From Pseudomonadales bacterium (lineage in GTDB: Bacteria > Pseudomonadota > Gammaproteobacteria > Pseudomonadales > UBA7239): a stretch of DNA of 64,000 nt. The stretch's first letter is position 1, and the number at the start of each line of letters is the position of its first letter. Shown here piece by piece: positions 6,467 to 45,720 of this stretch. Where the stretch lies: positions 62,001 to 126,000 of the forward strand of contig JANQLY010000021.1 in the NCBI GenBank assembly GCA_028280345.1, given 5' to 3'. The position numbers and the translations under genes are program-made. Under the pieces are notes generated by a model that saw only the letters and a list, made by a program, of their open reading frames with translations, was not told the DNA's origin and did no database searches.

Positions 6467-8500
6467 ATGATCAGGCTTATTTCGCTTATTGCCCTTTTCG
6501 TTCTATCACTATCTGCCATCGCCACACCGGTTGGTCCACTGAATTATCAAGGACGCTTGCTGGATAATCAGGGTGTGCCGGTAACCGGCTCCTACAATTT
6601 TGTGATTCGTATCTATGATGATGTAAGTGCAGGTACATTGCAGTACCAGGAGACGATCAATGGGGTGAATGTGAATGATGGCGTATATTCGTTCAGAATA
6701 GGTACGGCCCCGGTACCTGATGTAGGGACATGGGATTTGAATTTATGGCAAAGCAATTTGAATGATCTGTTTTTAGAGGTTGAAGTGGATTCTGAAGTGC
6801 TGGCGCCACGTTATGAGTTAACCTCTTCCCCTCATGCATTTACAGCTACACTGGCGCTGTCGGCGGAGTCATTGGGTGCCAAAACGGCAGCTGAGTTTGA
6901 CAACATTCTGGAAGGTATTTGTATTACCAGTCGCGGCAAATGGCTCGATCTGGTGAATACCTGCCTGGGTGTTGGTGCTACTGTAACCGGCGAAACCCTT
7001 GCGACCATGTTAAGCAATTCCCTCGATACAGATTTTACCGATCTGGATTTAAGTAAGGCGGATGTTACCAGTAGTAGTTTTGATGGCGTGAACTTTTCCG
7101 GCACAGTGTTTAAAAATACCCAGGTGTCGATGGCGGGCTTTACCAATACCAATTTAACTGGTGCGGTTCTGGATGGTGTAACGAGTAATAACGCCTTGCC
7201 AAACACGGCCATTAATTTAACTAATGCCACGCTGACCAATATGAGTTTGCAGGGTTGGGATTTATCCAATGCTGACATTACCGGGTTGTCGGCGGCCAAT
7301 CTGACAGCATGTCCGTCCCCCTCGGGGCTTCCCAACGGTTCCCTGTTACCGGCCAACTGGGAGTGCCGTGAGATGAGAGCTTCAAGCGGGCTGTATTTTC
7401 TTGCTGGCCCGGGCGTTAATCTGTCAGCCATTTCTGCGGCGGCAGTACAAGAGTTTGGCGTTAACTATCTGGAGTTTGACCCCGATGTATTTTTGGGACT
7501 TGATTTAAATGGTGCCAATTTCTCCGGTCTGGATGTGCGTCAGGACTTTGCGCTTGCAGATTTGAGTAACGCGGATTTTCGCTCAGCTTCCATTGCCCGG
7601 CGCAATGATTTTACCGGCGCCAATTTAACCAATGCTGATTTCACTGGTGCAACGATTGACCGTGTAAGCCTATTGGGAGCGACGCTAACCAATACGATTT
7701 TTGCACAAACTCGCCTGACGACAGTGGAGTTTGATGATATTGACGGTATTTCCTTTGCCGGCGCGACGATTATTAATGCATCGTTTCAGGCAATTAGTAA
7801 CACCAGTTTTGACTATGCCTTTGTCGAGGGTTTGCTGTTTGCCGGTTGGTGGACAGGTACGATTACCTTTACCAACGCCGAAGTGTTTAATGGTATTAAC
7901 TTGCCGGATTTGGGTGTTTATGATGCCATGACAGGGTGGGAGCCGATTGGAAATAATGCAACAGTTAACTTTGAAGGAACAAAGTTTAATGCGTTTCCGG
8001 ACCGTGGTGTAATTACTGCGAATATTGGCCAGGGCATTACCTATAATTTTAACAATGTAACCTTTAAGTACGTGCAGTTTGAGCCGCGCCCTGATTGTAA
8101 TTGTGCTTCCCAGAATGAGCATTGGCTGTATGGGCCTGATGCGCAGCACAGAGCGTTTTCGATTACCAACTCAACATTTGACAATGTGTTGTTTCGCTAT
8201 GAATCCAGCCCAGGTATGTATCAACAAACAGGTCTGTTTGGCAGCCTGGCGTCCGCAACTCACCCCTTGTGGCAGGATAATACCTTTAAAGTCTATGAGG
8301 ATGGTTTTAGTAGTGGAGTTGGCCCCTATGCGCCAGAAAACTATTTTGAAAATAATGTGTTTGAGTTATACGTTCAGCCCAGCATGGGGGTTCGTGTTAC
8401 CGGCTATTCAAGTTTGACATCAACCAATGGCATCAATCAGTTTGACCCCTGCGATGCCGGCGATCCGGAAAACAGTAATAGCTGTGTGAATCTGTATTAG
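6467..8500 (+). CDS. Secreted pentapeptide-repeat protein (paralog 1 of 3)
   Basis: 677 residues, ATG after GAGGAAA. Layout: signal peptide (about 1-19, ending SAIA); a beta domain starting TPVGPLNYQGRLLDNQG and ending PRYELTSSPHAFTAT, a module seen at the N-terminus of many secreted bacterial repeat and fibre-like proteins; a two-Cys segment (EGICITSRGKWLDLVNTCLG); pentapeptide repeats of A(D/N)LXX type from about 185; a linker with TACPSPS and ANWECREM followed by LAGPGVNLSA; a second pentapeptide block from about 340. The C-terminal 150 residues lose the repeat and contain DCNCASQNEH. Paralogs lie at 40873 and 43960. Surface or extracellular location is inferred; function unknown. Confidence 0.85.
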   Translation: MIRLISLIALFVLSLSAIATPVGPLNYQGRLLDNQGVPVTGSYNFVIRIYDDVSAGTLQYQETINGVNVNDGVYSFRIGTAPVPDVGTWDLNLWQSNLNDLFLEVEVDSEVLAPRYELTSSPHAFTATLALSAESLGAKTAAEFDNILEGICITSRGKWLDLVNTCLGVGATVTGETLATMLSNSLDTDFTDLDLSKADVTSSSFDGVNFSGTVFKNTQVSMAGFTNTNLTGAVLDGVTSNNALPNTAINLTNATLTNMSLQGWDLSNADITGLSAANLTACPSPSGLPNGSLLPANWECREMRASSGLYFLAGPGVNLSAISAAAVQEFGVNYLEFDPDVFLGLDLNGANFSGLDVRQDFALADLSNADFRSASIARRNDFTGANLTNADFTGATIDRVSLLGATLTNTIFAQTRLTTVEFDDIDGISFAGATIINASFQAISNTSFDYAFVEGLLFAGWWTGTITFTNAEVFNGINLPDLGVYDAMTGWEPIGNNATVNFEGTKFNAFPDRGVITANIGQGITYNFNNVTFKYVQFEPRPDCNCASQNEHWLYGPDAQHRAFSITNSTFDNVLFRYESSPGMYQQTGLFGSLASATHPLWQDNTFKVYEDGFSSGVGPYAPENYFENNVFELYVQPSMGVRVTGYSSLTSTNGINQFDPCDAGDPENSNSCVNLY

Positions 8501-10047
8501 CGGGTATAAACGCGCGTTTCCTGGTATAAATAGTATAAATCTTCCGGTAATTCACCTGACATTGGTAGACCAATTAGACTGGGGCGATTATTAAACGTAA
8601 CGCGTCGTTGCCACTGTTGCTCAAGTTGCCGCCAGAACTGCTGGTGATGAGCATATTGTGAGTTCCATGCGGCTTCGTTAGTTGCAAGTACCGAAATTTC
8701 AAGGGAGTGGTATTCATCGACATTGTCATCTTTTTTGAATGGCAGGAATACTATTGGGTATTGTTCCGGGTTCGCGGATACGATGAAATGGGTATCGTCT
8801 ACATGTGATGGCGTTAGAGCGACAACTGTTCCCGGTGCTATATTCTGGCTAATCCATTTGGCAGCTTGCAGTCGGGGGTCTTTATCCAGCATGGTTTTGA
8901 TGTGAGTGTAGGACACCAATAATAGATGTAAGGCTGTTATAGCAATGAGTATTCTAGTGGCATGCTGTGCTTTTGTGCCCAGTGACTGTATATATGGGTG
9001 AGTCAGTATACTCGCGATTAGCAGGGCGGCAATTGGAGTGGCTGCTACCGAATAGCGCAGCAAAGGTACTAGAGAGCTGGATATAACCAGCATATAGGGA
9101 ATGAGCCATGCCAGAAGTAGCATGGCTTGCTTGCCGGGTTTGATTATATGGAGGAGGATGGCAAGCCCGGCAATAACTACCGCAACGATACCCGTGCCCA
9201 TGGCGAGTCGATAGGGGTATTGTAATATCATCAGTAATGGCTGGCTGGCATCTTCGGCTTGGGTAATTTTTCGGAATAACTCCGTTTTAAATCCGGGCAA
9301 CAATAAGTCAGGTTCTATCAGGATCGATGGAAAGAAGCAGATGAAGCCAATAGTGATACAAGCTATACCCGCAGGTATTTTTTTGAGAATAGAAGAGCGA
9401 TCACCAAATAGCCATAAGTAGGCGAATGGGAAGACGATAGCAGAAAAAGCTGTATATTTGAAAGCGCCTGCAGCGCCGGCGGCAAAAAAACTGAGCCATA
9501 AAAAGCGTTGCCCCTGCGGTATTTTTACAGTCAGCCAGAGACACAATAAAATCATAAAGCCGGAGGCGGTATCGGTCTTCACATAGTGAGAGTCGATAAT
9601 GGAGATCGGGGATAACGCGAGCAGCAGAGCGGCGACAAGCCCGACATCCCGGTTGAATAATCGTTCGCCAATAAGGAAGACAAGAAAGATGGAGCCGATT
9701 GAAAATGCGCAAACCATCAGGCGCAGTGTCAGGTAAATCTTTCGTCGCTCGGGAGTGCTATAGTATTCTTTAACAGTGATATCATTAATGCCCAGCCATT
9801 TCGAGAGATGTAATACTGCGGCCCCGGTGTAAAAAAAACCGGCACCTTTTGTGTGAACGTATTGACTTGTCTGGAAAGCAAACGGCGCTTCAGCGGCGCG
9901 TAACGTGGTGATAAACCCCGCCTCTTCGTCTGGATGAAAAGGCCATGGTTGAAACGGGTAAGGGGTTGGTAACCCCCAGTCAATAACGCTGAGTCGTAAT
10001 ACACTGCCCAGTAGCAGGATAAGAAAGATGCTCGTGCTTTTGGACAA
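8497..10047 (-). CDS. GT-C fold glycosyltransferase (family 39 / ArnT-PMT type) membrane protein
   Basis: 516 residues with roughly 10-12 membrane helices and a soluble C-terminal part. The first periplasmic loop has FHPDEEAGF, the acidic DE motif expected of GT-C transferases that use polyprenyl-phosphate sugars. A later loop has LSPISIIDSHYVKTDT. Acceptor unknown: lipid A, protein or glycan are all possible. The frame begins at TTG 10045-10047, since no ATG lies nearby, so the start is uncertain. The stop overlaps the stop of the convergent pentapeptide gene by three bases. Confidence 0.8.
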   Translation of the reverse strand: MSKSTSIFLILLLGSVLRLSVIDWGLPTPYPFQPWPFHPDEEAGFITTLRAAEAPFAFQTSQYVHTKGAGFFYTGAAVLHLSKWLGINDITVKEYYSTPERRKIYLTLRLMVCAFSIGSIFLVFLIGERLFNRDVGLVAALLLALSPISIIDSHYVKTDTASGFMILLCLWLTVKIPQGQRFLWLSFFAAGAAGAFKYTAFSAIVFPFAYLWLFGDRSSILKKIPAGIACITIGFICFFPSILIEPDLLLPGFKTELFRKITQAEDASQPLLMILQYPYRLAMGTGIVAVVIAGLAILLHIIKPGKQAMLLLAWLIPYMLVISSSLVPLLRYSVAATPIAALLIASILTHPYIQSLGTKAQHATRILIAITALHLLLVSYTHIKTMLDKDPRLQAAKWISQNIAPGTVVALTPSHVDDTHFIVSANPEQYPIVFLPFKKDDNVDEYHSLEISVLATNEAAWNSQYAHHQQFWRQLEQQWQRRVTFNNRPSLIGLPMSGELPEDLYYLYQETRVYTR

Positions 10048-25564: not shown

Positions 25565-26137
25565 TCAAAGAGATTGTGAAGAGGTAACTAATACGACTTG
25601 TGGGCGTCCATTATCACAGGTAATTTTGACAGATTGACTGTCTGCCAGTTCAAAATTATCTTGTGCTCCCTGCGCCAGCCAATGGTAGAGATCAAGGATA
25701 TTGTAGCGGGAGTCAATCCGGGTGATATTGTCATGGATGTGGTTGGGATCGGCATAGTAAGCGTTGTGAAGTGCTGATTCTATCTGCATTAAATCCACAG
25801 CGTAGGGTACTTCGGATAAGATGCCCTCTCCACTACATAATGGTTTCACGAAATCGGGTAAATCCAGACCATAAAGATTTAAATCGTTATGCTGCAAGGG
25901 ATGGTGATATATATACTGCTGCAGGATGTTTTGAAAGCCGCTATCGCCAATCAGTCGCTGCGAGAGCGGATAGATTGATCGAACGGCACTTATTAAAGCG
26001 CTGTGGTTGTTAATCTGATAAACGCGCAGGCCGTTGTTAACAGTGACTGGCAGATTTTCCTTCAAGTGCCTGGCAAGGTTGTCAGGTGACTTGTTATACA
26101 AATCATAAAACCCCTTTTGTATTGTCATCAGGCTCAT
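25565..26137 (-). CDS. bufC: BufC/HvfC-like DUF2063 protein, partner of the MNIO enzyme
   Basis: 190 residues from the ATG at 26137, which overlaps the bufB stop as ATGA; the longer open frame to 26224 is a shadow of bufB. It begins MSLMTIQKGFYDLYNKSP and continues with the N-terminal DUF2063 helices (LRVYQINNHSALISAVRSIYPL). Known members bind precursor peptides and present them to the MNIO enzyme (BufB). Here it follows bufB and precedes the sigma gene. Confidence 0.85.
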   Translation of the reverse strand: MSLMTIQKGFYDLYNKSPDNLARHLKENLPVTVNNGLRVYQINNHSALISAVRSIYPLSQRLIGDSGFQNILQQYIYHHPLQHNDLNLYGLDLPDFVKPLCSGEGILSEVPYAVDLMQIESALHNAYYADPNHIHDNITRIDSRYNILDLYHWLAQGAQDNFELADSQSVKITCDNGRPQVVLVTSSQSL

Positions 26138-26985
26138 GCGGCTTTCCTGTGGTTGTCGATCAGATGCTGTGCTTTGTTGACCTCGCCGAGTAAAACGTCG
26201 AGTTCTGGAAGATCGTGATCCCACTCAATAAGCGTGGCAACCGGGCCAGTCAATGACAATGCTTCCTGATATAGCTCCCAAACCTCGTCAGCAACACAGT
26301 GGTTATGTGCGTCGATGACAAAACCTTCTTTTTGTTCAAAGCCTGCCAGATGAATTTCCTGTATATGTTTTGCGGGTATGGACTGCAACGTCTCTTTTGC
26401 ATCTCGCCCCAGGTTTATTTGATTGACATACAGGTTATTGACATCCAGCAGCAGACCGCATCCAGTGCGTTCCGCCAACTCAGTGAGAAAGCGGGCTTCG
26501 GATATCTCACTTTCTGCAAAATCAATGTAAGCTGATATATTCTCAATTAACATCTGCCTGCCCAGATAATCCTGGACCTGGTTGATGCGTGATGACAAAT
26601 GATCCAGTGCTTCCTCTGTGTAGGGCAAGGGAAGCAAGTCGGGAATAAACTGCGTTGAGTTGTTTTCAGTGTCTAGCCAGGAAAAACTCAGGTGCTCCGA
26701 GTAAACCAGTGCATCGCAGGCATCGAGTGTTTTTTTCACTGACGCCAGATAGCCCATGTCAAGAGGTTGTAACGCGCCGAGGCTGAGTCCTACACCGTGT
26801 GCGGCTAACGGGTAGCGTTCAGCAAGTGCGGCTAACATTTTTTGCGGTATTGCCCCTGCATAAAGCCAGTTGTCCAGCAATAATTCCAGCCACAAACCTT
26901 CGACAGGATGGTCAAGCAATGCAGGTACATGGGGCACTCTGACCCCAAGTCCCGCATGCTTGAAATTGGCTAAAGATGTATTCAC
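26134..26985 (-). CDS. bufB: BufB, multinuclear non-heme iron oxidative enzyme (MNIO, DUF692)
   Basis: 283 residues, TIM barrel. Start is GTG at 26983-26985, whose first base is the last base of the bufA stop. Family signatures: GLGVRVPHV, AAHGVGLSLG, YSEHLSFS, LIENISAYIDF, LLLDVNNLYVN, EIHLAGFE, IDAHNHCV and TLIEWDHDLPE; the H/D/E residues in these bind two or three irons. MNIOs modify cysteines of RiPP precursors, in bufferins to thiooxazole-type groups that bind copper. The substrate is the upstream bufA product. Confidence 0.92.
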   Translation of the reverse strand: MNTSLANFKHAGLGVRVPHVPALLDHPVEGLWLELLLDNWLYAGAIPQKMLAALAERYPLAAHGVGLSLGALQPLDMGYLASVKKTLDACDALVYSEHLSFSWLDTENNSTQFIPDLLPLPYTEEALDHLSSRINQVQDYLGRQMLIENISAYIDFAESEISEARFLTELAERTGCGLLLDVNNLYVNQINLGRDAKETLQSIPAKHIQEIHLAGFEQKEGFVIDAHNHCVADEVWELYQEALSLTGPVATLIEWDHDLPELDVLLGEVNKAQHLIDNHRKAA

Positions 26986-27266
26986 TACTTGGCAGGCTTG
27001 ATCTTGGCGACAACGCCACCAGTGATTTTTTCACAGGTTCCTTCTGGAACATAGACCCATTCAATATCCAGGTTGTCCTGTTTGGCCTGTCCCGCACAGC
27101 CGTGAGAGCCATCCAGAGCGCCGCAATCATTTTGTCCTGCTTTTGCAATTCCGGCACATTTCTCCCAGTTTTTGGGCTGATCCGGAACGGCATGAGAGCC
27201 AGTAGAGATCAGGGTTCCGCCAGCCAGCAGGCTGACTGCTGCAATTTTGGTCAGTGACTTATTCAT
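26985..27266 (-). CDS. bufA1: Bufferin-type RiPP precursor (DUF2282, BufA1-like)
   Basis: 93 residues. Sec signal peptide ([20 protein letters not shown]...SHA, about 1-26) is followed by a mature part with four cysteines at 37, 48, 57 and 78, in [20 protein letters not shown] and GTCEKI. This matches the DUF2282 bufferin pattern. Known bufferins are modified on cysteine by BufB/BufC and exported to bind copper. GAGGAG lies 7 bases before ATG. First gene of a five-gene operon (precursor, enzyme, partner, sigma, anti-sigma). Confidence 0.9.
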
Positions 27267-27507: not shown

Positions 27508-28680
27508 ATGCTGAGAATGAAGCCCGTAAACAACAGACGAGAATTGAAACGGCGGGCAGTAACAGGAAAGTACTTTATCCCATGGGTTTTCAGGGCTTTT
27601 TCAGGGCTCGTTCTGTTCTGCGCTTCTTTGCACCTGCAGGCTGTTGTGGTTTGCGGCGATGCCTATGAATGCCAAGGCTTGGTTGGCACGGATACTGAAT
27701 ATGGGTGTCTGGGTGAAAGCAGCTGTCGCGATGCAAACCTGACAGCCACCAACTTTGAGGTTGGCTGTTTTGGCAAAAATGCCTGCCGTGATGCAACACT
27801 GACCAGTACGATCAGCTATGTGCAGTGCGACGGAGAATCTGCCTGTTCTCGTGCAACGATTAATGCCAGCTCCTATACTTACTGCCGTGCCGATTACGGC
27901 TGTTATGATGCCAATATAACGACAGACGCAAATTTATACTGTAGTGGCTATTATAGTTGTGCTAATGCCGATGTTACTTCCGATGAGTTGAGCGGTTCAT
28001 CCGCTGCTTACTGTGAAGGTATGTACGGTTGTTACAACAGCATTTTTAATGTTAATCCTAACGGAGATCAATATTCCCTGGAATGCGAAGGTGCATTTGG
28101 CTGTTTTCGCTCTATTCTGAATGTTGTATCCGGTACAACGACCTCTCTGGATTGTCGCAATGCCCACTATGGCTGTCGTGAGCTATCTGTGGTCGGTGAT
28201 CTTGTAGACACTACATTTAACCTCTATTGCGCTGGAGACGTGGATGTAGGTGGTTCTGTTGATACTGAAGCTTGCTTGAATATGGTCATTAATATCGACG
28301 ATGGCCGTGGTATGAATTTTAGTGCTGACTCCGGCCTTGGAGATTATACGGTTTATGCAGAGAAAATTAATAATGCGACGGTAGTTACAGGCACTACCAC
28401 AGGCCAATTCACCTTTGGCTATTATGATTATGACGGCGATGGTATGCCGGATACGCAATTTTCCTGCGGTGCCACAATGGCAGACTGTACCTTGCTTGGT
28501 TACACGATTGATTCAGACGATGATAATGATGGTGTGAACGACGCGGTTGATGCCTGTCATGATGACAGTGGTATTGGTGGTACGACCGTCGGTGGTCAGC
28601 TTGGAACCGGTTCGGGTCATATTAATGGTGACCTTGATGGCAACGGTTGTGATGATGTCACGGAGGACGGCGGTGCATAG
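27508..28680 (+). CDS. Secreted cysteine-repeat protein A (unrecognised family)
   Basis: 390 residues from ATG 27508 (TTG 27499 is an alternative start). Basic leader and a hydrophobic segment near 29-46 (FRAFSGLVLFCASLHLQAV) form a signal peptide. Residues about 48-220 hold nine modules with a C-x5-C core, mostly CxGxxxC (for example CLGESSC, CFGKNAC, CDGESAC, CSGYYSC, CEGMYGC), spaced about 18-26 residues, with small polar and beta-prone residues between: a disulfide-staple solenoid is likely. The C-terminus has calcium-type Asp loops (DYDGDGMPD, DSDDDNDGVND). Function unknown. The next gene is a homolog. Confidence 0.8.
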   Translation: MLRMKPVNNRRELKRRAVTGKYFIPWVFRAFSGLVLFCASLHLQAVVVCGDAYECQGLVGTDTEYGCLGESSCRDANLTATNFEVGCFGKNACRDATLTSTISYVQCDGESACSRATINASSYTYCRADYGCYDANITTDANLYCSGYYSCANADVTSDELSGSSAAYCEGMYGCYNSIFNVNPNGDQYSLECEGAFGCFRSILNVVSGTTTSLDCRNAHYGCRELSVVGDLVDTTFNLYCAGDVDVGGSVDTEACLNMVINIDDGRGMNFSADSGLGDYTVYAEKINNATVVTGTTTGQFTFGYYDYDGDGMPDTQFSCGATMADCTLLGYTIDSDDDNDGVNDAVDACHDDSGIGGTTVGGQLGTGSGHINGDLDGNGCDDVTEDGGA

Positions 28681-29908
28681 ATTCAAACCTTTACTTAAGG
28701 CAATTTGCCAGTGCTTCTTATTATTTTTTCTGGGTGGTATTTCTGCTCAGGTTTATGCGGTAACCACTTGTGATCAGACCAGTGAGTGTGCATATCAAGC
28801 TATCTCTGACACAGAGTATATTCGCTGTTCCGGGTCAACCTCGTGCCGCGGTGCGACCAGCATACAGTCCACGAATAGCTATATCGTCTGTAGTGGCTCA
28901 AATGCCTGCTACGATGCCGCTTACATCTATACAGGCAGTCATATCTATTGTGATGGTTATAGCAGCTGTCGGCTGGCTGGCAATCTTGTGGCTAATTCCT
29001 CAGCCTATTGCACAGGTATGTACGGCTGTTATGACAATAACTTAATACAGGCCAATACCAATATTTACTGCCAGGGCTACTATGGTTGTGCCTATGCTGA
29101 TTTGATAAGAATCAGCGATGATATTGGCAGTATTTATTGTGATGGTGTTTATGCTTGCCGGAATTCGTTAATTGATCTCAGTACAACCAATGAGCGATTG
29201 TACTGCCGTGGTGAATATGGGTGTTACAGCGCAAATGTGACGCTGAGTATTCTGGAAGGGCAGACAGCCTATCTCTATTGTGAGGGAAGCTCCAGCTGTC
29301 GCTATATGACCATTGATGCCACCATCAAAGGCGCGACACTTAATATTATATGCTATGAGCAGAACTGCGATAATCTGGTGGTGAATGTAGCCGATGGCCG
29401 CGATGTGACTGTTAATCTGTATTCAGATAATACAGGCTCTACGGTAACCTTTACGCAAATTAATAATAATAGCCAGCTGGCGGGTAGTACGCCTGTGACG
29501 CTCGAATTTGGCTATTACGATTTTGATGGTGATGGCAAACCGGATATGCAATTTGGCTGCACCTCAGATTTTCTCGATTGCACACTGGCTGAAAATGGTG
29601 GCTATACCATTGACGATGACGCAGATGCAGATGGTGTGCTTGATCATCTTGAATTGTGTCACGATACTTCCGGGGCTGGCGGTTCTACCGTGGGCATATT
29701 AGGTGACGGCAGTACGTTACCTGGGGGTGATTACGATAGTGATGGTTGTGATGACACAGCAGAAGATGGCGACGATGACGGGGATGGTGTACAGGATGTG
29801 GTAGATCAGGACCCCTTGAATGGCGCGAATACAACAGAACTGGATATGCCACTGGATGGCACCTACCAGGGTCTTAATCTGGAAAAACAGCAATCGGGGT
29901 CGGAGTAG
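28673..29908 (+). CDS. Secreted cysteine-repeat protein B (paralog of A)
   Basis: 411 residues from GTG 28673, with GGAGG at 28662-28666 inside the previous gene; the two genes overlap by 8 bases, so translation is coupled. Signal peptide (HRFKPLLKAICQCFLLFFLGG...VYA). Nine C-x5-C modules (CSGSTSC, CSGSNAC, CDGYSSC, CTGMYGC, CQGYYGC, CDGVYAC, CRGEYGC, CEGSSSC and an initial CDQTSEC), then the same ADGRDVTVNL, FGYYDFDGDGKPDMQFGC and Asp-rich repeats as protein A. The C-terminal 40 residues (DDDGDGVQDVVDQDP) add another calcium-type loop. Function unknown. Confidence 0.82.
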   Translation: MHRFKPLLKAICQCFLLFFLGGISAQVYAVTTCDQTSECAYQAISDTEYIRCSGSTSCRGATSIQSTNSYIVCSGSNACYDAAYIYTGSHIYCDGYSSCRLAGNLVANSSAYCTGMYGCYDNNLIQANTNIYCQGYYGCAYADLIRISDDIGSIYCDGVYACRNSLIDLSTTNERLYCRGEYGCYSANVTLSILEGQTAYLYCEGSSSCRYMTIDATIKGATLNIICYEQNCDNLVVNVADGRDVTVNLYSDNTGSTVTFTQINNNSQLAGSTPVTLEFGYYDFDGDGKPDMQFGCTSDFLDCTLAENGGYTIDDDADADGVLDHLELCHDTSGAGGSTVGILGDGSTLPGGDYDSDGCDDTAEDGDDDGDGVQDVVDQDPLNGANTTELDMPLDGTYQGLNLEKQQSGSE

Positions 29909-40872: not shown

Positions 40873-43089
40873 ATGATGAAAAAATATGTTTTATTGCTTA
40901 TCCTGCTGGTGTTTCCTTTGTGGGTGTCTGCGACACCGGTTGGCCCAATGAGTTATCAGGGCAGGTTGTTGAACAATCAGGGAGTGCCTGTTACTGGCTC
41001 CTATAATTTCACTGTGCGCATCTATGATGACCTGGTTTCCGGTACGCTGGTCTATGAGGAGGTACACAGTAATGTCACGGTCAATGATGGCGTGTATTCG
41101 TTTCGCGTAGGTACCCAGACGCCACAAACCGGTAGCTGGGATCTGAATTTGTGGCAAAACAATATTAATGACTTGTATCTGGAGTTACAGGTTGGAGGCG
41201 AAACATTAAGCCCGCGCACTGAATTAACCTCTGCACCGCATGCGTTTACTGCAACGCTGGCTTTAGGTGCAGAGTCTTTGGGTGGAAGAAGTGCGGCGGA
41301 GTACGACAATATTCTCGAAGGACTGTGTGTTGCCAATAATGGTAAATGGCTGGCATTGGCAGAAGTCTGTGCCGGTGGTGCTGTGGATTTGAGTGGTGAG
41401 TTGTGGTCCGACCTTGATCCCGATAATAACTACAGTGGGGTGGTGTTTAGTAATGCTAACCTCTCTAATGTAGATTTTACCGGGGTGAATTTTAGCGGTG
41501 CGACATTCACCAATGTGGATATAACAAATGCCAACTTTACCAATGCTGTATTTACTGATGCAGTTTGGGATGGTGTGACATTCTCTACTGCGCCGAATAT
41601 TACAGGAGCAAACTTGACCAATGCTACCTTGCTCAATATGGATTTAACTGATCTTGATCTTTCGACGGCCTCTGCTGCAAGTGGTTTGGCGGCGGCCGAG
41701 CTTTCCGCCTGCCCTTCATCTGCCAGCAGATATCCGAATCTGGATTGGGGGTGTGTGACGTATACCAATGATGGAGCACAACAGGCTCTGATTGGCCCGT
41801 ATGTGAATCTGTCAGCCAATTCGCCAGCGATTGTGCAGAGAAAAGGGCTGTCCTATTTGAGTATTAACAACTTCGATGCGGGCTTGCTAACGAATGCTGA
41901 TTTTAATAGTGCGGCAGTGAGTGCAACGTTTACCGGCAGAAATTTGACCTCGGCAAACTTTAGCAGCAGTCAGTTGGATGATTCTGGCTTTTCCAGCAGC
42001 ACAGTTTCTCTGGCGGATTTCAGTAATGCAGAAATCAAGTGGACGGAGTTCTCCCAGCTGGAAGCACAAAATTCAACATTTACCAATGTGACGGTGGAAA
42101 ATGCCAGTTTTGTGAGCCCTTCATTTAATGCGCCGGGTTTTGAAGATAGTCAGTTCCTGTTTGTTCTGTTTGACAAGATCAATAACGGCTATGGCTTGAG
42201 TGACGGTCAGCCGTCGAATATGGATTTTGATAATGCCAAGCTCTATGAAGTGGTGTTTCTGGACTCTGTGTTGCATGGTGCAACTTTTTCCAATGCAGTT
42301 TTAACTAATGTAGATTTTACGCGCATTGCTAATGATAGTTCAAATGGCAACTTTAAATTGGATGGGGCAAAGCTACAGGACGTAACCTTTGACACGTTAA
42401 CTAGCGGAAATCCAATAATGGATTTGACGAATGCGAAATTACAGGATGTGGAGTTTGAGGGCTGGAATTTTTACTTTGGTTCACTGATAAGCGGAGCGGA
42501 ACTTGATGGGGTGAGTTTTAAGAATCTGATTATGTATGCTGATTTGTCGATTACCTCGACTGATGTGACCTATCCGGCTTCAGCGAAGCCGTTGGTATTC
42601 GAGAATGTGAACTTTTGGGGTAAGTTTGATTTAAGTAATGTCAGTGTGCCTAAAGGATCTGTATTTGACGGTATTACTTCATTGGGCAGCTCTTCCATAA
42701 CAGTGATTGGTGATACGGTTACTCTGGATGAGGTAAGCTTCAGGGAAGCGTATTTGGCTTATGTGACGTTTACGAACAATACGATGTACGGCGTTGATTT
42801 TACGGGAAGTACTTTTCAGGATGGAGACTTTAGTGGCTCCCTGATTGTCGGAGCAAACTTTACCAATGCCAAGCTTTGGGATGCTGATTTCTCAAATACG
42901 GATTTGAGATCCAACTATGACTATATTTTTAGTTTTAATGGCGCTGACTTGAGTGGTGTAGATTTTACTGGTGCCACCTTTGGTGGGCCTTTGCCATTTG
43001 ATTGGGATGGCGCCACTTGCCCGGACGGTTTTGTCGTTATTGATAGCGCTACTGAGAGTTGCCAGGATGGTCATTTGGTGGCTCCCTGA
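40873..43089 (+). CDS. Secreted pentapeptide-repeat protein (paralog 2 of 3)
   Basis: 738 residues. Signal peptide MMKKYVLLLILLVFPLWVSA, then the same beta domain as paralog 1 (TPVGPMSYQGRLLNNQG to PRTELTSAPHAFTATL), the LCVANNGKWLALAEVC Cys pair, first pentapeptide block (NLSNVDFTGVNFSGATFTNV), a SACPSSAS...DWGC linker and IGPYVNLSA, and a long second block to near the end, finishing DGATCPDGFVVID...CQDG. The repeats form a right-handed quadrilateral beta-helix. The last block is longer than in the paralogs. Outer surface or secreted; no catalytic motif. Confidence 0.87.
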   Translation: MMKKYVLLLILLVFPLWVSATPVGPMSYQGRLLNNQGVPVTGSYNFTVRIYDDLVSGTLVYEEVHSNVTVNDGVYSFRVGTQTPQTGSWDLNLWQNNINDLYLELQVGGETLSPRTELTSAPHAFTATLALGAESLGGRSAAEYDNILEGLCVANNGKWLALAEVCAGGAVDLSGELWSDLDPDNNYSGVVFSNANLSNVDFTGVNFSGATFTNVDITNANFTNAVFTDAVWDGVTFSTAPNITGANLTNATLLNMDLTDLDLSTASAASGLAAAELSACPSSASRYPNLDWGCVTYTNDGAQQALIGPYVNLSANSPAIVQRKGLSYLSINNFDAGLLTNADFNSAAVSATFTGRNLTSANFSSSQLDDSGFSSSTVSLADFSNAEIKWTEFSQLEAQNSTFTNVTVENASFVSPSFNAPGFEDSQFLFVLFDKINNGYGLSDGQPSNMDFDNAKLYEVVFLDSVLHGATFSNAVLTNVDFTRIANDSSNGNFKLDGAKLQDVTFDTLTSGNPIMDLTNAKLQDVEFEGWNFYFGSLISGAELDGVSFKNLIMYADLSITSTDVTYPASAKPLVFENVNFWGKFDLSNVSVPKGSVFDGITSLGSSSITVIGDTVTLDEVSFREAYLAYVTFTNNTMYGVDFTGSTFQDGDFSGSLIVGANFTNAKLWDADFSNTDLRSNYDYIFSFNGADLSGVDFTGATFGGPLPFDWDGATCPDGFVVIDSATESCQDGHLVAP

Positions 43090-43959: not shown

Positions 43960-45720
43960 ATGATGAAAAAAATTGCTCTGCTGTTTGCCCTGATGATATT
44001 TCCCCTGCTGTTATCTGCGACACCGGTTGGTCCAATGAGTTATCAGGGCAGATTGCTGAACGATCAGGGAGTGCCTGTCACAGGTTCCTATAACTTTACT
44101 GTGCGCATTTATGATGATCCGGTTGCCGGTGCGCTGGTTTATGAAGAAGTACACAGTAATGTCACGGTCAATGATGGCGTGTATTCATTTCGTGTAGGCA
44201 CCCAGACACCGCAAACCGGCAGCTGGGATCTGGATTTGTGGCAAAACAACATTAATGATTTGTATCTGGAGTTACATGTTGGAGCCGAAACATTAAGTCC
44301 TCGTACTGAGTTAACTTCCTCTCCTCATGCCTTTACGTCAACGTTGGCTTTGGCGGCTGATACGCTCGGTGGCAAAACAGCGGCGGAGTACGACAATATC
44401 CTTGAGGGTGTATGTGTGGCAAGCAAGGGAAAGTGGCTGGATTTGGTAGATCAATGCCTGGGTGCCAGTTCTTCTTTTCCGGGGCCTTCCGTCTCCAGCT
44501 GGAGTACATTGTCCAGTGACAGCGATTTTTCCAATCTGGATCTAAGCAATGCAGATATCAGTGGTATTTCATTTATGGGTGCAGATTTATCAGGTAGTAC
44601 CTTCTACCAGACCACTTATAGAGTATCCGGCATTGCACATGCGGACATTGGCAATACTTACTGGGATGGGGCTGTCGCCACAGATAGTTCGGCATATTTA
44701 ATTCAAACCAGTCAATTTAATATTAAAGGCGCAAGCTTTAAAAATATGGACATGTCAAAATGGCATTTTCAACTAAGTGGCGGAGGATCCGCACATCAAG
44801 GTATGTCTGCTGCTTACCTGAGTGCCTGCCCGGTGTTAACGCCAATCCACGGTTGGGAGTGTCGCTTGATGCGTAGTGGTGGCAGTGAATATTTTCTTGT
44901 TGGTACCGGGGCGAACCTTTCCAATACTTCGGCGCTCAGCATAGCGGGCTTTAATGGCAGTGTTCTCGATATTGATAATGATGCACTGGATAATATTTAT
45001 CTTGGTGGTGCATCATTTGCAGGTAGTACAATTGTTGCCAATCTCTCTGGAAGTAGTTTGTATCAGGCAGATATGAGTTATTCGGTGATTAGAAATGCCC
45101 ACTTTACATCTGGAACTTCTTTCACGGGCACTAATTTGACGGGTGCGCATATTGAGCAATCGATATTTGAAACCGGCTCATCCATCGGTGCGAACTTTCA
45201 GGGCGCAAGACTCAATAATGTTCAGTTTCTCGATGATGTTGTGCTGGCTGATTTTACCAATGCGTATTTAAGAGAGGTGTATTTTGATTTTTTGTCAGTG
45301 TGTGATTTCACATCGGCAACGTTGGAAGATGTTCATATTGATAGCATGCGTAGTACCAGTGCGTCTCCTTACTATACGACGTTTGATAAAACCCGTATTT
45401 ATGGCTTATTTCAGGTGGATGATCACTACGGAGGTTATCCGAATTTTGATCATTTGATCTATCAGGATCTTGAATTTATCGGGGCCACATTGTCAGGTAA
45501 TTTCTCGGGTGTCACATTTACCAATTCTGTCAGTTTCAAGCATGTTGTGCTGGATGATCTGAATTTAAATAATGCTGTGATTCCTTTGGTGGATACAACC
45601 GCACCGCATAATGATTTGTCTACTGTGACCTGGGGGGCAGTGAGATGCCCGGATGGCACTGTGGTAAGTGGTGGTACCGGAGCCAATTCCTGCGATTATC
45701 TATTACGTATGACACCATAG
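43960..45720 (+). CDS. Secreted pentapeptide-repeat protein (paralog 3 of 3)
   Basis: 586 residues. Signal peptide and beta domain are almost identical to paralog 2 for the first 130 or so residues (TPVGPMSYQGRLLNDQG), then CVASKGKWLDLVDQCLG as in paralog 1. First pentapeptide block (NLDLSNADISGISFMGADL), linker SACPVLTP...GWECRLM with LVGTGANLSN, second block (NLTGAHIEQSIF, NFQGARLNNVQFL). Ends VTWGAVRCPDGTVV...CDYLL. It is the shortest paralog; the shared 5' end and different 3' end suggest duplication followed by divergence or recombination. Confidence 0.87.
   Translation: MMKKIALLFALMIFPLLLSATPVGPMSYQGRLLNDQGVPVTGSYNFTVRIYDDPVAGALVYEEVHSNVTVNDGVYSFRVGTQTPQTGSWDLDLWQNNINDLYLELHVGAETLSPRTELTSSPHAFTSTLALAADTLGGKTAAEYDNILEGVCVASKGKWLDLVDQCLGASSSFPGPSVSSWSTLSSDSDFSNLDLSNADISGISFMGADLSGSTFYQTTYRVSGIAHADIGNTYWDGAVATDSSAYLIQTSQFNIKGASFKNMDMSKWHFQLSGGGSAHQGMSAAYLSACPVLTPIHGWECRLMRSGGSEYFLVGTGANLSNTSALSIAGFNGSVLDIDNDALDNIYLGGASFAGSTIVANLSGSSLYQADMSYSVIRNAHFTSGTSFTGTNLTGAHIEQSIFETGSSIGANFQGARLNNVQFLDDVVLADFTNAYLREVYFDFLSVCDFTSATLEDVHIDSMRSTSASPYYTTFDKTRIYGLFQVDDHYGGYPNFDHLIYQDLEFIGATLSGNFSGVTFTNSVSFKHVVLDDLNLNNAVIPLVDTTAPHNDLSTVTWGAVRCPDGTVVSGGTGANSCDYLLRMTP

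Follow-up and report, generated by a model that had tools for sequence, protein, structure and literature searches.

Expansins are proteins that loosen plant-type cell walls. In microbes, they are known in fusion with carbohydrate-binding domains, GH5, and dockerins (PMC5072189). Beetle antifreeze proteins are built on the repeat consensus CTxSxxCxxAxT (PMC7277481), and yet another set of cysteine-rich proteins, the MNIO-associated Cys-repeat proteins of the Buf_EGKCG/oxazolin kind, comprises chains of up to 506 residues that are predicted to form beta-helices with inward-facing cysteines, some of them bearing calcium-binding EF-hand domains (PMC12452194). Here we analyze two overlapping genes, denoted A and B, in a 64,000-nucleotide stretch of DNA from a Pseudomonadales bacterium (hereafter, the window), along with two further paralogues, C and D, encoded elsewhere in the same genome.

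Genes A and B lie on the forward strand, as do all their features given below, and each is predicted to encode an exported solenoid protein. Gene A (27508..28680) starts with ATG and specifies 390 amino acids, and gene B (28673..29908) starts with GTG and specifies 411. The end of A overlaps the start of B by 8 bases (28673..28680), and the ribosome-binding site of B, GGAGG (28662..28666), is embedded in A, six bases 5' of the GTG. An alternative start of A, TTG 27499, has AAGGA four bases upstream, better placed than for the ATG. The frame of B is open 5' of the GTG as far as TTG 28547, within A (window 28547-28672); GTG 28673 is favored over TTG 28547 because of the signal peptide and the ribosome-binding site. 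A and B are paralogues, with 43% identity; we infer that they originate from a tandem duplication and that translation of B is coupled to that of A. Each protein begins with a hydrophobic stretch in its sequence, followed by a plausible signal-peptidase site; the putative signal peptides comprise residues 1-45 in A (27508..27642, cleavage after LHLQA) and residues 1-29 in B (28673..28759, cleavage after AQVYA). C-terminal to the solenoid, both proteins contain DxDxDG motifs: an Asp-rich calcium-type region in A (28414..28677), which is not followed by a C-terminal tail of the kind found in B, and thrombospondin type 3-like calcium-type Asp repeats in B (residues 283-383, 29519..29821, with low model confidence), the Pfam TSP_3 scores, 8.4 bits for A and 7.2 bits for B, being both under the cut-off of 25. 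The initial annotation had read the two frames, their overlap, the GTG start and internal GGAGG, the single signal peptide in each protein, and the calcium-type repeats in the same way, and all of these are borne out by the sequence.

Between the signal peptide and the calcium-type region, each protein is occupied by cysteine-pair modules, mostly of the CxGxxxC type, spaced 18-25 residues apart, with the consensus CxGx[YS][SAG]Cx[DN]A[TN][IVL][TN]x[TS]. The solenoid of B (residues 33-232, 28769..29368) consists of nine C-x5-C modules and one C-x4-C (C227-C232), and that of A, which is homologous to it (residues 49-256, 27652..28275), of eight C-x5-C modules, one C-x6-C, and one loose pair, the irregular modules lying at the end (C216-C223 and C241/C256, respectively). 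The window contains 67 stop-to-stop frames that reach 150 aa; B and A have the highest C-x5-C counts among them (9 and 8), and the next frame has 4. When each mature sequence was shuffled 20,000 times, the mean C-x5-C count was 1.6 for A, with a maximum of 8, equal to the observed 8, and 1.4 for B, with a maximum of 7, below the observed 9; since these counts ignore the regular spacing of the modules, a chance origin is far less likely than the counts alone imply. Motif counts and shuffles thus substantiate the earlier claim of cysteine modules, at 9-10 pair modules per protein. The structure prediction that the initial annotation had called for was made with AlphaFold2 for mature B, using a three-sequence alignment (B, A, and C), and returned a beta-solenoid with two strands per coil. 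Mean pLDDT is about 80-96 in ten-residue blocks over mature residues 11-200, dropping to less than 50 across the calcium-type region. In the model, each module has its first cysteine where a strand ends and its second within the turn that leads to the next strand, which makes within-module disulfides plausible. Cysteine pairs are retained even though the length of the intervening loop varies (x4, x6, x8, and x9), and the cysteine totals of the solenoids are even (20 in A, 20 in B, 16 in C, and 14 in D), so that within-module disulfides are likely. Of the disulfide-stapled beta-solenoid proposed originally, therefore, the solenoid is supported by the model of B, and the disulfides remain likely on the strength of pair retention and even counts.

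The view that the proteins belong to no named family also held: neither A nor B has a match to a curated family above cut-off in Pfam and NCBIfam scans, the NCBIfam scan giving no match at all. DUF7640 (PF24646) is borderline on residues 49-117 of A (24.8 bits by hmmscan and 29.1 in the genome search, with a cut-off of 28.1), is absent from B, C, and D in Pfam scans, and found no mention in a literature search. Its other weak matches in the phylum are bufferin precursors (of the ACKGQNACKG kind), recognized through short Cys-Lys-Gly repeats, and a low-complexity frame; therefore, the profile in part rewards cysteine spacing and is of little use for judging homology in this case, and it was dropped as a path to relatives. 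In one genome (G266), two tandem Cys-rich bufferin-like precursors (L018:1477-1734 and 1930-2295) adjoin an MNIO gene, and the profile matches at this locus, so the Pfam model is able to pick up bufferins. A sequence-profile search of solved structures yielded nothing matching A or B, and the best E values in a fold search with the B model were 0.65 against PDB and 0.09 against viral models, although the low-confidence half of the query may weaken this search. Protein and profile searches covered about 1,000 genomes in overlapping sets (57 relatives, 392 genomes of the order, 369 of the class, and 398 of the phylum), among which the solenoid was found only in the genome of the window; it was likewise not found in plasmids, phages, and viral contigs. 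One match among the 57 relatives, in G046, is an OmpA-type protein that aligns via calcium repeats and so is no solenoid homologue, and two archaeal records from the genome contig scan match the calcium repeats only.

A search of that genome identified paralogue C on the minus strand of contig 16 (G000, L011:3831-5318), and a search with the C-terminal tail of B identified paralogue D (P0003, contig 19). Both are single genes with the same domain order, namely, a signal-peptide-like start, cysteine-pair modules, a calcium linker, and an expansin. Full-length alignment of C with D gives 32% identity. D is the most distant member because a profile built from the other three members missed it at E 0.001; a four-solenoid profile, which counts D among its members, matches the D solenoid at E 3.4e-54. 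In D, both expansin domains score above the Pfam cut-offs (DPBB_1, 37.8 bits against a cut-off of 28.8; Expansin_C, 29.8 bits against 24.6), with E 2.2e-19 to EXLX1. In C, both DPBB and Expansin_C score just below the Pfam cut-offs, and the closest solved structures are EXLX1 (3.4e-9), a plant beta-expansin (1.4e-5), and YoaJ (5.2e-5); the structure model of this part is of low confidence, so the assignment of the expansin domain in C rests on sequence matches. PF03330 is found in the genome only in D and in one 314-aa DPBB frame that is probably RlpA-type. B can be aligned with C until approximately the transition of C into its expansin, where B ends, and DPBB and Expansin_C are absent from A and B by Pfam. 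Of the four known occurrences of the solenoid, two are hence in the company of a wall-loosening protein. The same genome encodes no fewer than five exported proteins with pentapeptide repeats that have an N-terminal domain in common, ATPVGPMxYQGRLLxxxGVPVTGSYNFxVRIYDD (window 6467-8500, 40873-43089, and 43960-45720; L011:5433-7460 and 7643-9346), and two of these directly adjoin C.

The C-terminus of B belongs to a lineage-specific module (29765..29905) with the sequence DGDDDGDGVQDVVDQDPLNGANTTELDMPLDGTYQGLNLEKQQSGSE; the last ~45 residues of the protein are DDDGDGVQDVVDQDPLNGANTTELDMPLDGTYQGLNLEKQQSGSE. The tail opens with one calcium repeat, continues approximately as [NT]xE[ILV]xLPL[ND]xx[YF]xG, closes with a short end, and has no membrane helix. 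A has no such tail, its frame ending where the tail would begin, over the start of B; in C and D, the tail sits just ahead of the expansin domain. A profile made from seven such C-terminal ends gave 15 strong matches in the genome of the window and 11 in G003, which belongs to another genus of the same family and is recorded with 8% contamination, a limit on any claim that the tail occurs in a second genus. It was not found in G001, in G002 (which shares its genus with G003), or in the rest of the 295 genomes of the order (E 1e-7). The full tail occurs in 31 proteins, including five weaker ones, of which 28 stop 0-8 residues beyond it and three (C, D, and one other) extend about 240 residues further; in L069:62-1717, the shared tail is found mid-protein, ahead of about 240 residues without a Pfam match. 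The carriers are otherwise unrelated, containing FG-GAP repeats, DUF5122 propellers, or a right-handed beta-helix, with several lacking any Pfam match, and the TSP_3 cut-off is passed by other tail-bearing proteins. This is the pattern of a shared C-terminal signal or cap, and to attribute a sorting role to it would be a guess.

Taken together, these observations lead us to propose that A and B are secreted accessory members of a polysaccharide-loosening set, serving to adhere to polysaccharide surfaces or to target them, a proposal that we consider evenly poised between right and wrong. Because C and D join the same solenoid to an expansin, attachment to the wall is the most likely role of the solenoids, in preference to copper handling. 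A and B contain no recognized binding domain, and the analysis revealed neither a ligand nor an aromatic binding row; it is the expansin company of the domain that suggests carbohydrate binding. For the steps beyond the signal-peptide-like start, we infer the following course. The proteins would cross the inner membrane by Sec and would be oxidized and folded in the periplasm, where a disulfide between the two cysteines of a module would bridge the turn that links its strands and so staple the coil, in the manner of the Cys-x5-Cys coils of beetle antifreeze proteins. The folded proteins would then leave the cell, probably by the type II secretion system, a route described as moving folded proteins (PMC7949064); GspG is encoded in all four genomes of the family, with two copies in the genome of the window. 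Outside the cell, calcium would rigidify the linker, and the solenoid would bind a polysaccharide or cell-wall surface, alone in the case of A and B; in C and D, it would position the expansin, which would loosen that surface without hydrolysis. The second gspG is isolated (L096:13095-13625; G000 contig 13, about 297095-297625) and follows, after 75 bases and in the same orientation, the gene for a tail-bearing FG-GAP/TSP3 protein; inspection of 19 kb by eye revealed no further gsp genes.

The tail allows a further, tentative reading, to which we give well under even credence, namely, that it acts as a new signal for sorting or surface retention, lineage-restricted and lacking a membrane helix, with B and the expansin proteins among its approximately 30 cargo proteins in two genera. 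Unlikely, in our view, is that A and B form a structural or adhesive surface heteromer, acting as cell-cell or biofilm adhesins, with the tail of B holding both on the cell. The overlap of the genes, with the ribosome-binding site of B inside A, and the presence of the lineage-specific tail in B but not in A would fit such a division of labor; C and D, on the other hand, occur as single genes, no sign was found that the tail serves as an anchor, and the absence of the tail from A may be a by-product of tandem duplication. As an obligate arrangement, the heteromer raised in the initial annotation is, accordingly, not supported: tandem duplication with loss of the tail of A explains the overlap equally well.

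The same annotation placed the pair beside a divergent bufferin operon, and the operon itself is real, consisting by Pfam of DUF2282, MbnB_TglH_ChrH, DUF2063, and an ECF-type sigma factor. The DUF2282 bufferin precursor (26985..27266; PF10048, E 5.6e-24) and the MNIO enzyme (MbnB_TglH_ChrH, 26134..26985; PF05114, E 1.7e-95) are encoded on the minus strand and are read here as neighbors outside the A-B system, and a promoter scan found no sigma-70-type site between bufA and A. This neighborhood invites the improbable alternative that A and B are outsized MNIO substrates, bufferin-like copper binders in which cysteines are oxidized to metal-binding heterocycles rather than disulfides. The start of A is 241 bases from the operon, and the idea is worth testing because large MNIO-associated Cys-repeat proteins with a predicted beta-helix, some with EF-hand domains, have been described (PMC12452194). 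However, A and B lack the EGKCG motif, match none of the known MNIO precursor families (DUF2282 and others) in Pfam and NCBIfam, and keep their cysteines paired and even in number; furthermore, they are divergent from the MNIO operon rather than in one operon with the MNIO gene, and that operon has its own DUF2282 precursor, read in the direction opposite to A-B. A link to bufferins is not supported: C and D share the modules, yet their surroundings, covered over 10 kb and 6 kb, respectively, contain no bufferin or MNIO gene, and the weak DUF7640 matches include bufferin precursors themselves.

Two alternatives fare worse still. It appears very improbable that A and B are paralogues in decay that, unlike C and D, have shed the expansin and no longer serve any purpose: B does end close to the residue where C runs on into its expansin, and A has lost the tail too, but the frames of both are long and intact, their cysteine pairs are fully kept and more regular than those of D, and B retains a good ribosome-binding site. 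Finally, an ice-binding role, with Cys-x5-Cys coils and ordered Thr columns of the beetle type, is suggested by the resemblance of the A/B module consensus to the beetle repeat, which extends, in several modules of A, to a T/N-x-T/S strand. It is rated very improbable, since neither the length of the coils nor the placement of Thr is regular: the coils are unequal, at 18-26 residues against 12 in the beetle proteins; the TxT column is uneven, with several modules of B, C, and D lacking it; neither A nor B is built of 12-residue CTxSxxCxxAxT repeats that present a TxT face for ice binding, or shows a match to the Pfam antifreeze family or a sequence match to beetle antifreeze proteins; and an expansin fusion has no evident ice-binding role.

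If the surface-sticking role proposed for A and B is correct, a compact disulfide-stapled solenoid joins the modules that bacteria fuse to expansins, and C and D become the route to the function of the solenoid, with the focus shifting away from the bufferin neighbor. The tail, absent at the same threshold from the 295 genomes of the order apart from the genome of the window and G003, is in turn a testable case for an unrecognized sorting signal. In this respect, it resembles PEP-CTERM, GlyGly-CTERM, and MYXO-CTERM, given that the tail of B also ends many unrelated exported proteins of one genome, but differs from them in that B has neither a hydrophobic helix nor a basic end and that three proteins continue past the tail. 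The Buf_EGKCG/oxazolin proteins are similar to A and B in being exported, cysteine-repeat proteins with a predicted beta-helix and, sometimes, calcium-binding domains (PMC12452194), whereas their motif and repeat length are different and the paralogues of A and B are not linked to MNIO genes. The antifreeze proteins of Tenebrio and Dendroides share with A and B one Cys-x5-Cys per coil, followed by xxA, and the beta-solenoid, predicted in A/B; the coils of A and B, however, are longer and uneven, present no regular TxT face, and are supplemented with a calcium linker. The closest parallel to C and D is provided by expansins such as EXLX1 and YoaJ (DPBB_1 plus Expansin_C), both domains of which C and D carry after the solenoid and linker, unlike A and B, which are without an expansin domain. 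The modules named as fused to expansins, namely, GH5, cellulose- or chitin-binding, dockerin, and discoidin, include no cysteine-module solenoid (PMC5072189). Disulfide-stapled solenoids and modular expansins are known kinds of proteins, and their combination with the module shared by A, B, C, and D is new.
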